This document shows positions 37,257 through 43,718 of a stretch of 63,480 bases of DNA, piece by piece. Under the pieces are notes generated by a model. It searched no databases and was not told the origin of the DNA. It saw only the letters and a program-made list of their open reading frames with translations. The position numbers were made by a program, and so were the translations under genes. The number at the start of each line of letters is the position of its first letter. Positions within the stretch are counted from its first letter, which is position 1. The stretch comes from Candidatus Kryptoniota bacterium (lineage in GTDB: Bacteria; Bacteroidota; Ignavibacteria; Kryptoniales; Kryptoniaceae). Where the stretch lies: contig CALJEK010000034.1 in NCBI GenBank assembly GCA_938074445.1, positions 1 to 63,480 of the forward strand. The letters run 5' to 3'.

Positions 37257-38348
37257 TTACTCCTCACCACCAAAGTTCAACAAAATTGTAAAACGTAAAG
37301 TATTTGCGAGGGGATGATTGGCTTCAAAAGTCGAAATATAGCTGAAATCAACCCCAACTATGCTATATCTCACGCCAGCACCAAATGTTGCAAATTTTCT
37401 ACCCCCTGCTCTTGGGTCCTCGTAAAAATAACCAGCCCTTAAAGCAATAAGCCGTGGACTCCCATACCAATATTCAACTCCAGCACCCACAGTTACCTTT
37501 CTCAAACTTGCTTGCTCACCCCAAGCTGTGATTAATGATTTAGGCAATGGATCGGGTTTGCGGTTTTCGCCCGGATATCTTCTAACAAGAACTCTACCAA
37601 AGTCAATCGTCGTCGTGAGATTGTTGTATTTCGTTTGAATCACATTAAAGGCAAAGCCAACTCTCAAATGAGTCGGGAGCGGGTCCGCCTGTTCTTTATC
37701 AATGTAATGAATCATCGGACCAAGGTTCGAGAGATTTAAACCAGCGCTTATTCTTCTACCAAAAATATATTCCCTAAAAAGTAATCCAATGTCAAAACTA
37801 ATTCCATTTGCAACCCCCCTGCCCTGCTCTTCCGCTGTCCCAAACGGTGCAAGCTGGCTATGTATATATCTGAGATTTACTCCAAACCCAAAACTTTGTG
37901 TTAATTTCATCGCATAAGCAAGTGCAACTGCATATTCAAAAGCTTTAAAAGTCCCAAGGTAAGTGTTGTTTTCATCCCTTCGTTCAAATGAACCGAGGTT
38001 AAAGAAAGTTATATTTGCTCCAAGTGTTGCGTCAATTGAAGCGAGATAATGTTTCGCACTAAGGTATTCATAAGATAAGTCAGAACTAAACTGAGGGAGC
38101 CATTTTGCATGTGTAAAGCTTATTTCTGTTCCCCTTTGAAAGGCAAGTCCAGCAGGGTTCCAAAAGATAGCATTAGCATTGTCAGCAAGTGCAACACCAG
38201 TTTCTCCCATCGCCCCTGCTCTTGAATCTGGTGCGATCAAAAGAAATGGAACCGCTGCATCCCCACCCTGTGAATAAAGCATATTGGAAAAAAGAACGAA
38301 AATTACAAACATATTCAATCCGAGGATTGCTCCTTTCCTCAACAGCAT
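37257..38348 (-). CDS. porV: Type IX secretion system outer-membrane shuttle protein PorV
   Basis: A 363-residue outer-membrane beta-barrel of the FadL-like PorV/PorQ family. Signal peptide (about 12-26), then the diagnostic AVPFLLIAPDSRAGAMGETGVALADNANAIFWNPAGLAF. The rest is a barrel with a C-terminal strand FTILLNFGGEE. In T9SS, PorV carries cargo with sorting domains from the translocon SprA to the PorU sortase. It is 118 nt downstream of porU; a weaker promoter-like pair (TTG 38463-38461, TATATTTA from 38442, spacer 18) lies in that gap, so porV may be transcribed both with porU and alone. Porphyromonas and Flavobacterium also use PorU with PorV. Confidence 0.93.
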   Translation of the reverse strand: MLLRKGAILGLNMFVIFVLFSNMLYSQGGDAAVPFLLIAPDSRAGAMGETGVALADNANAIFWNPAGLAFQRGTEISFTHAKWLPQFSSDLSYEYLSAKHYLASIDATLGANITFFNLGSFERRDENNTYLGTFKAFEYAVALAYAMKLTQSFGFGVNLRYIHSQLAPFGTAEEQGRGVANGISFDIGLLFREYIFGRRISAGLNLSNLGPMIHYIDKEQADPLPTHLRVGFAFNVIQTKYNNLTTTIDFGRVLVRRYPGENRKPDPLPKSLITAWGEQASLRKVTVGAGVEYWYGSPRLIALRAGYFYEDPRAGGRKFATFGAGVRYSIVGVDFSYISTFEANHPLANTLRFTILLNFGGEE

Positions 38349-41400: not shown

Positions 41401-42519
41401 AATTCTCTTCCCATGAGCCCCACCAAAGGTAAGAAAGTAGTAGTTCACATCGGAATAATCGTGAATGTAGTGCGAAAATTCTTTAAGATTGCGATCGTAA
41501 TTCCATCCACTTGTCCCTCTACCGTAAAAAATTATATAATCCCCCTGATCAAACCTGCCATCATCCTGCCCATAAACATAAATGGCGTTTTCAATTAAAC
41601 CTAACGGTCTTGGTTCCGAGACATTTTCAGGTAACTGAAAACCACCGTTATTAAAAATCTTTATGGTTCTTGGATCAATGTTGTCAGGATTTATTCCAGC
41701 ACTTCTTAAGTCAGCATATGTTATCTTATAAATTCCCTCTTCCGTTATAGGGATTTTATACCACTCACCGCTTGAAAGTTGACTTGTTTCCAACTTTGGC
41801 AAACTTAAACCCTGTATTCTCCAAAACTTTGCGACATCGCGATTGACAAAATTTTGAGCAACCTTTAAATCAAATTTACCAGGATTCGCAAACGGAATTT
41901 CAGCTTGACCGTATTTCAATACAACTCTAACTCGCGTATAAATTCTCGCCTTCCCAATAGCGGGGTTATATTGCACGGGGTAAATTTTTATAGTTGATAC
42001 GATGTAATTTCTAGCTATCCCAACATCTCCAAGTTCAGCAACTCTTTCAGGGATATAAGTATTCTTATTGTAGCTATCGCCAAAAACAAAAACTTTTAGA
42101 TAAGAAATTGTGTCTTCGGTGTTTGCAAATCTTTCAGGGATCAAATACGGAAATGGTTTTAACTTAACATTTTCATACTCAATGTAGGATGACTCTATAA
42201 CATTGATAAAATTTCCACCTGTCGATTTCAAAGCGATCGGAAAAATTCTGACAGGAATTTGAGGTTCGCCTATCTTAGGATTGTCAAATGTAGTGTTAAG
42301 AAATAAAAATGAAAGAAGCAATTCGTTTTGATAATTCGTAGAATCTATCTTGACAAGGTAAGGTTTATACTCGATCACTATTTCATCCCCAGTTTGAGAG
42401 ATGATTTGAAAGTCGGGGATATTTTGAGATAAAACAACTTGAACGAAGAGAAAAACCAAGATAAATAAAAAAGGACAGTTGCCAAGCGAACTTACGTTAA
42501 AGGTTGAAGTTTTTAGCAT
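38467..42519 (-). CDS. porU: Type IX secretion system sortase PorU (C25 family)
   Basis: A 1350-residue surface protease-sortase that removes the C-terminal sorting domain from T9SS cargo. Signal peptide at about 16-31 (FLFILVFLFVQVVLS). An N-terminal beta-rich region (30-600) precedes the gingipain-like C25 domain (about 610-1010): ADWIIITHSDFMSQAKRLAEHR, FYVLLFGDGDYDYRN, the catalytic His in VNWIGHGNPYVWAHE, and the catalytic Cys in VVAATCDFGRFDNP, followed by QSSTEVLLALKDGGAIGVLSSAR. It ends in its own FlgD-like/sorting domain (FNYPNPFSDKTYF, IANGVYIYKV). Both catalytic residues are present. The start codon sits inside a long palindrome and has no clear ribosome binding site; a strong promoter lies at 42624-42652. 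Confidence 0.93.
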   Translation of the reverse strand: MLKTSTFNVSSLGNCPFLFILVFLFVQVVLSQNIPDFQIISQTGDEIVIEYKPYLVKIDSTNYQNELLLSFLFLNTTFDNPKIGEPQIPVRIFPIALKSTGGNFINVIESSYIEYENVKLKPFPYLIPERFANTEDTISYLKVFVFGDSYNKNTYIPERVAELGDVGIARNYIVSTIKIYPVQYNPAIGKARIYTRVRVVLKYGQAEIPFANPGKFDLKVAQNFVNRDVAKFWRIQGLSLPKLETSQLSSGEWYKIPITEEGIYKITYADLRSAGINPDNIDPRTIKIFNNGGFQLPENVSEPRPLGLIENAIYVYGQDDGRFDQGDYIIFYGRGTSGWNYDRNLKEFSHYIHDYSDVNYYFLTFGGAHGKRIGTIQSLNEPSPFKPGYTIGLYFKDDQRINLTESGRDWFMSSVEARPGFNMVSYTVKLDELVPGKPIQYRVQVASRSGGPNWFVVKEGDVELGTIQLGTVSLGGLSSLIDFYAVKSGPKKFVYTGELKDSRSNLKFYFNWTGEAVAGYVDWFEIIYPRSFKAVNDYIAFYSYDTTGVVEYKIFGFSSNDVKVFDVTNFEDVKIISGSVNAGEFVFQISQQGGEIKRFIGVGSNGYKKVSKIEKVRNTNLRGGTEGADWIIITHSDFMSQAKRLAEHRARKDSLKTIVVDVEDIYNEFSCGMLDPVAIRDFLKFAFDRWSKKPFYVLLFGDGDYDYRNVEVSDKNWVPAYESKEGLQQILTYTSDDFFVLLTPDIYVDMAIGRLPVRTQEEAETIVNKIIQYENNNDFGLWRNTIVFVADDGLTSGGATDGTIHTIQSETLANYYTPDFINKRKLYLVAYPTVYTSVGRRKPEAAKSLVDLINRGSVIVNWIGHGNPYVWAHERVFEIGYTIQNLRNSERLPFVVAATCDFGRFDNPKTQSSTEVLLALKDGGAIGVLSSARLVYSSDNAAFNYKFFDELFKGDDEFKTSPLGDAVFRVKQYYASLNDRKFILFADPAMRLLIPRYTTAIDSINGNASNQVVNLKALGKTTFSGKAQKNNLVDLNIDGTVEIAVFDAQRNLSFVDELGWRFNFIDQGNLLFRGMYSLRNGRFKSQFVLPKDISFSNERAKAIAYFYGDKVDGVGYTTNIVINGIDSSFVGDLKGPEIEVYLNNTYFRSGDIVPNEPTLIVEIFDENGVNVSTSAIGHRIEAFLDDNPSGIDLSEFYRTKLDDYKRGEVIYKLPKLSPGKHTIKVKAWDVFNNSSVREVEFRVVDEGVFAIYNVFNYPNPFSDKTYFTFQKVASLEDEPVDVEIKIYTLSGKLINKIERYGLTGNFIAIEWDGKDMDGDEIANGVYIYKVIVRTVEGKRAESLGRLVVMR

Positions 42520-42606
42520 ATCGTAAGCATTCGTTTTTGCTTTAATTTAAGGCACCTAATTCAAAGAGTAAAACCTTTAACGAAGCCGCAATAGGCAACT
42601 GTCCTT
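42471..42606. repeat. 136-bp imperfect palindrome spanning the porU start codon
   Basis: Outer arms: 13 bp perfect (aaggacagttgcc, 42471-42483, with ggcaactgtcctt, 42594-42606). Inner arms: 11 bp perfect (cgttaaaggtt, 42495-42505, with aacctttaacg, 42572-42582). They are separated by 11-nt mismatched blocks of equal length and a central 66-nt loop that holds the porU ATG (42519-42517). It begins about 10 nt after the predicted porU transcription start. No flanking target duplication is visible. Confidence 0.9.
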
Positions 42607-42623
42607 AAATTTGTAACTATCTC

Positions 42624-42652
42624 AATATAATCAACCCAAAATTAAAAGTCAA
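42624..42652 (-). promoter_or_regulatory. Predicted promoter of porU
   Basis: Minus strand TTGACT (42652-42647), 17-nt spacer, TATATT (42629-42624), equal to TTG-N20-TATATTGA. It begins one base past the stop codon of the upstream gene, so porU-porV can be transcribed independently. Predicted start near 42617, with a leader of about 98 nt. Confidence 0.65.
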
Positions 42653-42653
42653 A

Positions 42654-43718
42654 TTAAACTGCGTGAAAACGAATTACAAATTTATTCCCACTTTTAAATT
42701 CCGAAGGTTCAACAACAACGGTTCCTCCATTTATCTCGACGATTCTATGGAATATATTCATTGCGAAAAGATTATAGTCTGGCTTGTGTTCAGAAACAGA
42801 AACAAGGTATGGGTTAAATAACACTTTGGCAACATCAGAAGTTAGTTTCTTCGCTTCGTCGTAGATGGTTATAAATACAAATTTACCGTCACTCCCTGAC
42901 CGTGTAACTTGCCCGATTTGAATCCTCCCACCAAGTGGCATCGCTTCAACTATCGTCTCAAATAAAACTTTAAAACCAATCCCAAGCCATTCTTCATCCC
43001 CCTTAATTAATGCTTCTTTTCCAAAATTAAATTCAAAATCAACCCCAGTGAACTTCTCCTTCATTTCCTCAGCCGTTTTTTTAATCAAAAAATTAACATC
43101 AAAAACCTTCCTCTCAATTTTACGAATTTCAGCGGAGATGTCGTTTAAGTGTGTAGAGTAATCAATAAGTTTAAACCATTTTTTCATCTTATCATAATTT
43201 TCAAGCAAAGGCACCCTAAATTCATCTTTAAGTTCCTCGCTTGATAACATCATTTCAATCACTCCCTTAATAGACGAAAAAATTTCTTTTATCTGATTTA
43301 TAAAAAACCTTTCGGTCATCATTTGCATTTTTTTCGTTTCATTTTCAAGCAAGCGCATCCGCAAAACAGACTTAACTCTGGCGACTAACTCCGTAAATCT
43401 TATCGGCTTGTAAAGATACTCAATAGCACCGAGATTAAAGCCTCGCTCGAGATTTTCTTCATCAACATATTGCCCAGTTAAAATTATTACTGGAATTTCT
43501 TTGGTGATAGGATTTTGCTTAAGCTTAAAAAGCACGGTGAATCCATCCATAACCGGCATGCTTATATCGAGAAGTATCAAGTCAGGTCTTTTCTCTTGGG
43601 CAAGCATTAATCCTACAAGACCATTTTCAGCAGTTATCACATCGTAACCTTCAATTTCAAGTGCGTTTTTTAATGTCTCTCTTAACTCCTTCTCATCGTC
43701 AACCACAAGGATTGTCAT
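42654..43718 (-). CDS. Response-regulator receiver fused to a degenerate histidine-kinase-like module
   Basis: A 354-residue protein. Residues 1-120 are an intact receiver domain: acidic pair Asp7/Asp8, phospho-acceptor Asp51 in LLDISMP, Thr81 and Lys104. Residues about 125-215 align with a DHp domain (NQIKEIFSSIKGVIEMM against HELRTPLTAIKGFIEML), but the phospho-acceptor His is Asn141. Residues about 230-354 resemble the ATP-binding domain, yet the N-box asparagines are Glu (F-E-T-I-V-E-A), the DxGxG box reads YDEAKKL, and the GxGLGL box reads DYNLFAM, although HRIVEINGGTV is kept. It should accept phosphate but not act as a kinase. It follows its partner gene by 9 nt and precedes porU. Confidence 0.85.
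   Translation of the reverse strand: MTILVVDDEKELRETLKNALEIEGYDVITAENGLVGLMLAQEKRPDLILLDISMPVMDGFTVLFKLKQNPITKEIPVIILTGQYVDEENLERGFNLGAIEYLYKPIRFTELVARVKSVLRMRLLENETKKMQMMTERFFINQIKEIFSSIKGVIEMMLSSEELKDEFRVPLLENYDKMKKWFKLIDYSTHLNDISAEIRKIERKVFDVNFLIKKTAEEMKEKFTGVDFEFNFGKEALIKGDEEWLGIGFKVLFETIVEAMPLGGRIQIGQVTRSGSDGKFVFITIYDEAKKLTSDVAKVLFNPYLVSVSEHKPDYNLFAMNIFHRIVEINGGTVVVEPSEFKSGNKFVIRFHAV

Follow-up and report, generated by a model that had tools for sequence, protein, structure and literature searches.

A conserved helix at the start of the sortase gene porU as part of a probable leader RNA control element in Kryptoniales and related families

The gene porU encodes the sortase of the type IX secretion system (T9SS), and in a 63,480-nucleotide stretch of a Candidatus Kryptoniota genome (GenBank assembly GCA_938074445.1, contig CALJEK010000034.1, positions 1 to 63,480; hereafter, the window) its start codon is enclosed by a long palindrome. 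Having compared this palindrome with other porU loci of the same GTDB class, we think it somewhat probable that it forms helix P1 of a cis-acting leader RNA, in which a strand at the 5′ end of the mRNA (strand 1) pairs with a strand further downstream (strand 2), and whose closed form would keep porU off – either by terminating transcription or by locking the region around the start codon. At the level of sequence, the pairing of P1 is conserved: its 5′ strand is conserved in the letters themselves, and the partner is either a strand of the 5′ untranslated region (UTR) that precedes a terminator-like hairpin or the first codons of the gene. The porU leader is probably an RNA control element that has gone undescribed.

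An earlier note on this DNA, made from its letters alone, had described perfect outer arms of 13 bp and perfect inner arms of 11 bp around a 66-nt loop that holds the porU ATG, and all of this, coordinates included, is borne out by the sequence (Table 1). Its view of the 11-nt blocks between the arms as mismatched needs amending: the blocks do lie there but are not wholly unpaired, as GCG can pair with CGC and (A/G)CUU with AAGU. The stem does take in the first porU codons, as proposed, but since the inter-arm blocks pair in part it has 29 pairs with small bulges rather than 24. Similarly, there is indeed no Shine-Dalgarno (SD) sequence before the ATG, but the 5′ arm opens with AAGGA. The mRNA strand from 42618 to 42456 has a minimum free energy of -47.8 kcal/mol (z -5.0), a stability reached by none of 200 dinucleotide shuffles. 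By themselves, the 13-bp outer arms could be a chance occurrence – the 63-kb window has one perfect 13-bp inverted repeat with arms at most 160 nt apart, and 40 Markov sequences have 0.5 on average – whereas the whole stem, taken with its conservation, exceeds chance.

Table 1. Features at and around the start of porU (positions are those of the window)
Feature	Position	Strand	Remarks
Outer arms of the palindrome	42471-42483 and 42594-42606	minus-strand mRNA	perfect, 13 bp
Inner arms of the palindrome	42495-42505 and 42572-42582	minus-strand mRNA	perfect, 11 bp
Strand 1, 5′ arm of helix P1	42572-42606	minus	reads AAGGACAGTTGCC TATT GCGGCTTCGTTAAAGGTT
SD-like AAGGA	42602-42606	minus	5′ end of the mRNA; paired when the hairpin is closed
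66-nt loop	42506-42571	minus	conserved patches CTTTGA, AAAGC-AAAA and ACGATATGC; contains the porU ATG
Strand 2, 3′ arm of P1	42471-42505	minus	inside porU codons 5-17; codons 7-17 read FNVSSLGNCPF
T-rich tract TTTTATTT	42463-42470	minus	abuts the outer arm; intrinsic-terminator-like; within signal-peptide codons
porU, T9SS sortase, 1350 aa	38467-42519	minus	Peptidase_C25 1.2e-95, Propeptide_C25 1e-17
porU start codon ATG	42519-42517	minus	within the P1 loop
porV	37257-38348	minus	PF19572 PorV 6e-34; downstream of porU, possibly under the same leader
Predicted porU promoter TTGACT-N17-TATATT	42624-42652	minus	sigma-70-like match
Response-regulator gene	42654-43718	minus	upstream of porU, same strand; ends 47 nt before the outer arm

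The genus of the window is represented by seven genomes, six of them with a porU orthologue (G005, which is 71% complete, gave none). The leader is present in all six, and each of the 29 pairs is a standard one in every genome (174 of 174 cells). One P1 pair of the outer arm has changed on both sides in G006, from A-U to G-C, and two further pairs have changed on one side, to G-U; the tract that follows the outer arm is T-rich in all six, with its shortest run in G003. Insertions and deletions within the genus fall before the ATG or, in threes, after the arm, a pattern that supports the ATG at 42519 as the start of porU.

The coding arm is constrained beyond what the protein asks for. Across codons 7-17, all nine columns with an invariant amino acid are also invariant in codon, compared with 137 of 737 gene-wide, and the third positions are identical (11/11) in each of five relatives, compared with 0.46-0.62 elsewhere in porU; with the columns treated as independent, the product of the amino-acid-specific rates for the frozen codons is about 1e-8. 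Two changes are found in these codons, both altering the amino acid: one sits at a bulge and the other is the compensated pair. Given that the synonymous sites are frozen and that the changes are only such as the structure tolerates, it is the nucleic-acid structure that has been kept, and not the protein alone. To the question raised by the earlier note – are the arms kept as pairs in relatives? – the answer is that they are, in six of six genus genomes and with one compensatory change. One hallmark of a cis-regulatory leader, a conserved 5′ leader structure beyond coding constraint in orthologous genes, is found at porU.

In a wider search, porU was found in 152 of 159 genomes. Three collections yielded 108 porU loci (30, 18 and 60); 97 of them were scanned for promoters, with a match in 89, and 85 were analysed. 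Ten loci without a visible leader were set aside by eye (L017, L021, L026, L029, L033, L034, L038, L104, L106 and L112), L203 was left out as too short, and L160, L166, L184 and L191 were dropped as wrong automatic calls; families f11, f19, f23 and f24 lie outside the inspection. As the leader set is partly a selection by eye – 38 loci were kept from the first 48, chosen after reading – counts among the 85 are not estimates of prevalence. With variation, the porU leader is seen in 13 families of the class. Its strand 1 follows the pattern UAUAGA..UUGUUAAAGG and is able to pair with a downstream strand 2. The common layout runs from a promoter-like TTGAC-N15/19-TA..T over some 10-40 nt to what is often AAGGAG and, a few nucleotides on, to strand 1, which begins with UAU(A/C/U)G and continues, after about 10 nt, with UU(G/C)UUAAAGGUUU or UUUGCUAC; family f7 is the most divergent. 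In the closest family, f2, which belongs to the same order, strand 1 reads GCGAAGGTTCGTTAAAGGTTTAAA .. TAGACCTTTGACGAAC, and the core TTCGTTAAAGGTTT is common to f2 and the genus. The core 14-mer occurs in 15 of 20 f1/f2 genomes, at 16 places, all of them (16/16) porU leaders; it also matches 15 genomes of the class outside f1/f2, where a reversed control pattern matches likewise. A gapped P1 pattern is found in seven of 139 class genomes, once in each and always at a porU leader; five of these were already in the leader set, and the other two are in G010 and G016.

No leader was seen in the inspected loci of f3, f5, f8, f9, f15, f16 and f20, nor at the single loci L033 (f2), L029 and L166 (both f4). 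Outside the class, the motif pair occurs in none of 15 loci from nine families, with one lone partial match, in a search by regular expression alone, which could miss divergent forms of the leader. Two loci stand apart. At L227 (G010:C55), an intact leader precedes what appears to be a broken porU remnant, the gene having seemingly been lost unless the contig is misassembled; and in the tandem pair of porU genes in G016, one copy (L033) has no recognisable leader and the next copy has one.

Within the leader set, strand 1 matches its own partner better than those of its relatives. Over 85 leaders from 13 families, the mean energy of the duplex between strand 1 and the downstream region is -18.97 kcal/mol for cognate partners, compared with -15.7 for partners from the same family and -12.73 between families, and the cognate mean was reached by none of 5,000 within-family permutations. 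In 22 leaders of f10 and f21, the partner of strand 1 is formed by the opening codons of porU, with the start codon (TTG in L146) lying between the two strands: the cognate energy is -17.05 kcal/mol, as against -10.84 for non-cognate pairs (0 of 20,000 permutations), and for 15 of the 22 the cognate partner ranks best or second best of all 22. These leaders were delimited by seeds read from the sequences, with L160 and L171 included and L147 (masked) and L198 left out. Their layout is that of the window palindrome, in other sequences. An automatic search for a downstream partner, scored at no more than one in 100 shuffles, succeeded in f1 (5/6), f2 (6/8), f4 (1/2), f7 (4/12), f10 (7/15), f12 (4/6), f13 (1/5), f14 (5/10), f18 (4/5), f21 (3/6) and f22 (2/4), and in none of three leaders each of f6 and f17. 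The supported P1 helices, from the 51 leaders out of 84 whose partner scores at no more than two in 100 shuffles (L012 being excluded from the tally because the automatic search had picked another segment), contain 79 interior G-U pairs and two A-C mismatches, an excess that suggests pairing on the mRNA strand and is indicative, given that the folding program itself favours G-U.

By eye, a pairing of the 5′ SD with a TTTCCTTTTT-like stretch of signal-peptide codons at the far end of P1 looks possible in four f10 leaders (L152, L151, L110 and L161); the counterpart in the window is the pairing of AAGGA with TCCTT.

In most of the related families inspected, the leader also has a terminator-like hairpin. 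In ten families (f2, f4, f6, f7, f12, f13, f14, f17, f18 and f22), 53 of 58 leaders have a hairpin of at most -10 kcal/mol with a T run behind it, compared with 16 of 232 shuffles. This hairpin lies in the interval between the promoter and the open reading frame (ORF), anywhere from overlapping the ORF start to about 100 nt before it (the latter in some f7 loci, by eye), and several of the ten families share a core like CCGAAYGU..ACRUUCGGUUUUUU. In nine of the 53 (four from f2 and five from f14), the hairpin that scores best is P1 with Ts behind it, and a second one can also be seen in the sequence. In f1, f10 and f21, such a hairpin is found in one of 27 leaders, compared with two of 108 shuffles, and in the genus the only candidate for a terminator is the large-loop P1 with its T tract.

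In some families, the terminator-like hairpin may have an alternative partner. Strand 2 can pair with the 5′ half of the terminator in all four f22 leaders and both f17 leaders tested (0 of 100 shuffles each, far above non-cognate pairs), and also in single leaders of f18 and f4; this test excluded L018, L162, L165, L157 and L148 (no terminator by regular expression), L153 (no core) and family f7. With the whole upstream leader as the partner, at loci with a regular-expression terminator and with L153 included, one f13 leader out of three (L031) passes, and f17 falls to one of two. In f14, a segment of the P1 loop that resembles the 3′ half of the terminator can pair, at no more than two in 100 shuffles, in seven of ten leaders – which are not independent, since nine of the ten come from one genus. 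The segment, AATTTCGGTTTT, seen in L035, L168, L172, L175 and others, is a near-copy of the terminator 3′ half and could pair with the terminator 5′ half.

At six loci (L015, L019, L031, L096, L097 and L099), the porU frame is open upstream through the terminator-like hairpin (in f12, as IYIGLPSVY..NSRFFVM); here, the porU start may lie further upstream, or a ribosome may read through the hairpin. At some f12 loci, an SD and an ATG stand inside the P1 loop.

Taken together, these features would fit a leader that is transcribed from its own promoter and whose 5′-terminal strand 1 pairs with strand 2. We infer that P1 folds in the cell and switches, that its closed state is the one in which porU is off, and that the gene is turned on when something – be it a small molecule, a protein or a ribosome bound to the 5′ SD – occupies strand 1. 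In most of the related families inspected, closing P1 would free the terminator-like hairpin to form; in some, strand 2 or the P1-loop segment would instead pair with the terminator 5′ half, giving anti-termination. In the genus and in f10 and f21, with strand 2 in the first porU codons and the start codon enclosed, P1 would lock the start region, and in the genus, where the stem is longer, richer in GC and runs into the T tract, it could be terminator and start-region lock together, as a transcript left untranslated could also terminate there. A ribosome that starts in time at the ATG in the loop would unzip strand 2, letting both transcription and translation continue.

Several results weigh against this reading, or against parts of it. 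Within the genus, 94 of 500 shuffles reach the observed covariation, a weak control because the stem is nearly invariant there. No alternative pairing partner was found in the genus leader, which weakens the case for a two-state switch there; the hairpin finder, which disallows a loop this large, makes no terminator call at -10 kcal/mol in the genus; and the T run after the stem shrinks to four in G003. Pairing of strand 2 with the terminator 5′ half does not rise above shuffles in f2 (0/7), f6, f12 or f13, and with the whole upstream leader as partner, none of eight f2 leaders gives an antiterminator at no more than two in 100 shuffles. The automatic P1 test finds a partner in only 42 of 85 leaders and does poorly in f6, f17 and f7, and in f1, f6 and f22, partners from the rest of the family do at least as well as the cognate one. 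Finally, the covariance model built on the genus finds, above noise, genus porU leaders only, and homology of the leader beyond f2 would rest on position, promoter and short motifs rather than on a single alignment.

The nearest competitor is purely translational control, in which the hairpin would expose or mask the start codon without any part in transcription. It draws on the start codon being enclosed in the genus as well as in 22 f10/f21 leaders with largely AU-rich stems, and on the terminator called in just one of 21 f10/f21 leaders run; ten related families with a terminator-like hairpin at porU, and a genus stem that ends in a T tract, speak against it, and we regard it as rather unlikely. 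The earlier note had argued for translational control of the sortase. An RNA-level element around the start codon is supported by the pairs kept in six of six genomes, the frozen synonymous sites and the co-evolution in f10 and f21, but transcriptional attenuation is as likely, because most of the related families inspected carry the terminator-like hairpin. The thermosensor that had been offered as one form of such control is not borne out, as the fold, of about -48 kcal/mol, has the ATG in its loop rather than its stem; nor does that position suit a thermosensor within a purely translational scheme. A hairpin without regulation, protecting the mRNA or serving as an RNase III processing site, would be at home in a long double-stranded stem that begins some 10 nt into the predicted transcript; stability needs neither a conserved strand 1, nor the terminator-like hairpin of the relatives, nor a strand 2 in codons, and we think such a constitutive role improbable.

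The remaining rivals have still less in their favour. The arms are near-identical and nearly invariant in the genus, which would suit a regulator-bound DNA site – inverted operator copies or a cruciform – yet the 79 interior G-U pairs set against two A-C mismatches suggest, with the program's leaning towards G-U in mind, that it is the mRNA strand that is kept paired, and the pairing is retained although strand 2 is part of the 5′ UTR in some families and of the coding sequence in others; a DNA-level site is very improbable. The chance is slimmer still that the stem and T tract are the terminator of the response-regulator gene, which stops on the same strand at 42654, 47 nt short of the outer arm, and overlap the porU start by accident: a promoter match intervenes, and the upstream genes vary by family (a tRNA gene in four f2 loci, others by eye) with promoter and leader staying with porU. 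A small inserted inverted-repeat element, resembling a miniature inverted-repeat transposable element (MITE) and proposed as an alternative in the earlier note, would fit the palindromic shape but can practically be dismissed. In its own genome, the 201-base region, the genus covariance model and the core 14-mer each match one place above noise, so the further copies of the arms for which a search had been suggested did not turn up; the leader is single-copy, sits at the orthologous position in all six genomes and keeps the frame in each of them. The 12-mer AAGGACNGTTGC does occur outside the porU leader, once or twice per genome in the seven genus genomes, and the stretch examined around eight such loci has no second arm; we take these occurrences as chance.

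What might occupy strand 1 in the proposed leader? In 48 of 85 leaders, an SD 5-mer lies no more than 20 nt upstream of the strand-1 anchor, compared with 9% of shuffles and 4.6% of downstream windows, and an anchor-free recount puts one near the 5′ end in 57 of 85. In those 57, the triplets found 4-9 nt after the SD are AUA (40), AUU (18) and AUC (9), with no AUG; an AUG stands 2 nt after the SD in L016 and L102 (f12) and, by eye, near an SD-like sequence in L103, L105 and L149. The porU start codons of f10 and f21 have an SD 5-mer of their own in three of 22 cases, and the long ORFs of the window in eight of 33. An SD followed by AUH at strand 1 suggests that a ribosome binds there. The idea that strand 1 is a ribosome sensor, with a 30S subunit on the 5′ SD keeping P1 open and so switching the sortase on, is nonetheless doubtful. 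If it were true, outer-membrane secretion would follow the state of the ribosome pool or the fidelity of initiation, and one sensor strand would serve interchangeable outputs – a terminator, an antiterminator or the gene's own first codons. A mini-ORF beginning at the AUH of strand 1 was considered and rejected: its median length is seven codons, compared with 13 in another frame (61 leaders), and in most f14 leaders it stops after two.

Starting with AUU is a property of infC, and the porU leaders resemble that gene in having an SD followed by AUA, AUC or AUU at start-codon distance; the gene is a different one, and no conserved ORF follows the SD in porU leaders. A second precedent comes from the phylum Bacteroidota, where the ribosomes of Bacteroidia are reported not to recognise SDs, rpsU being an SD-dependent exception (PMC9976891). 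As in rpsU autoregulation, an SD-like sequence is found on the regulated mRNA in a phylum in which, in the classes studied there, SDs are largely unused; unlike it, the SD of the porU leader stands in or beside strand 1 at the mRNA 5′ end and well away from the ATG. The names Ignavibacter, Kryptoni and Rhodothermi are absent from that paper.

As to the surroundings of the leader, the earlier note had placed the start of transcription about 10 nt before the outer arm, which fits the predicted TTGACT-N17-TATATT promoter. This is one of three promoter-like matches in 601 bases, with 2.1 expected, and it recurs at the corresponding position in all six genus leaders; its -35 box starts one base past the stop codon of the response-regulator gene. 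Over the best segment, porU is 74% identical to that of Candidatus Chrysopegis kryptomonas JGI-23 and 86% to that of Candidatus Kryptonium thompsonii JGI-4, the closest named organisms found, of which the latter is assigned to the phylum Candidatus Kryptoniota. The gene is duplicated in several genomes, in tandem at G141:C4:103355-111784, G061:C140:8678-16875 and G016:C51, and also on C13 and C31 of G017. A second, larger C25-like ORF (about 1600 aa) lies at G000:C17:39692-43930, with counterparts in all seven genus genomes and many relatives in the class.

To our knowledge, little has been reported on control of T9SS genes at the level of RNA, and a leader on the sortase gene in 13 families would offer a direct handle on it. 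Nature here also provides an example of an upstream strand that is conserved, with a partner that lies, according to family, in a terminator module of the 5′ UTR or in protein-coding codons; where the partner strand is in porU codons, RNA structure visibly constrains the signal peptide. In attenuation of the trp/his type, which works through a leader peptide, pairing follows a 1:2 / 2:3 / 3:4 geometry. The f22 and f17 leaders would share this geometry but differ in that porU leaders have no conserved leader peptide, the AUH mini-ORF being unsupported.

No leader searched has a gathering-score match in Rfam 15, and at relaxed E-values the yield is one miRNA family with an E-value of 0.89, far below gathering. 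Among the titles and abstract openings of the open-licence literature, we found no description of an RNA leader of porU or of the T9SS, and a term search of the main text of two structured-RNA surveys (PMC11109978 and PMC8632094) gave no mention of porU, secretion, Ignavibacter, Melioribacter or Bacteroidetes; a term search of a survey of attenuators (PMC2965389) found neither Ignavibacteria nor Bacteroidetes named. The transcription attenuators of that survey, in which a terminator precedes the gene, invite comparison with the porU leader: like them, it has a promoter, a leader helix, a terminator-like hairpin at the ORF and, in some families, pairings that would be mutually exclusive, and it differs from them in its gene, a T9SS sortase, in its sequence and – in the genus and in f10 and f21 – in having one strand of the helix within the codons of that gene.

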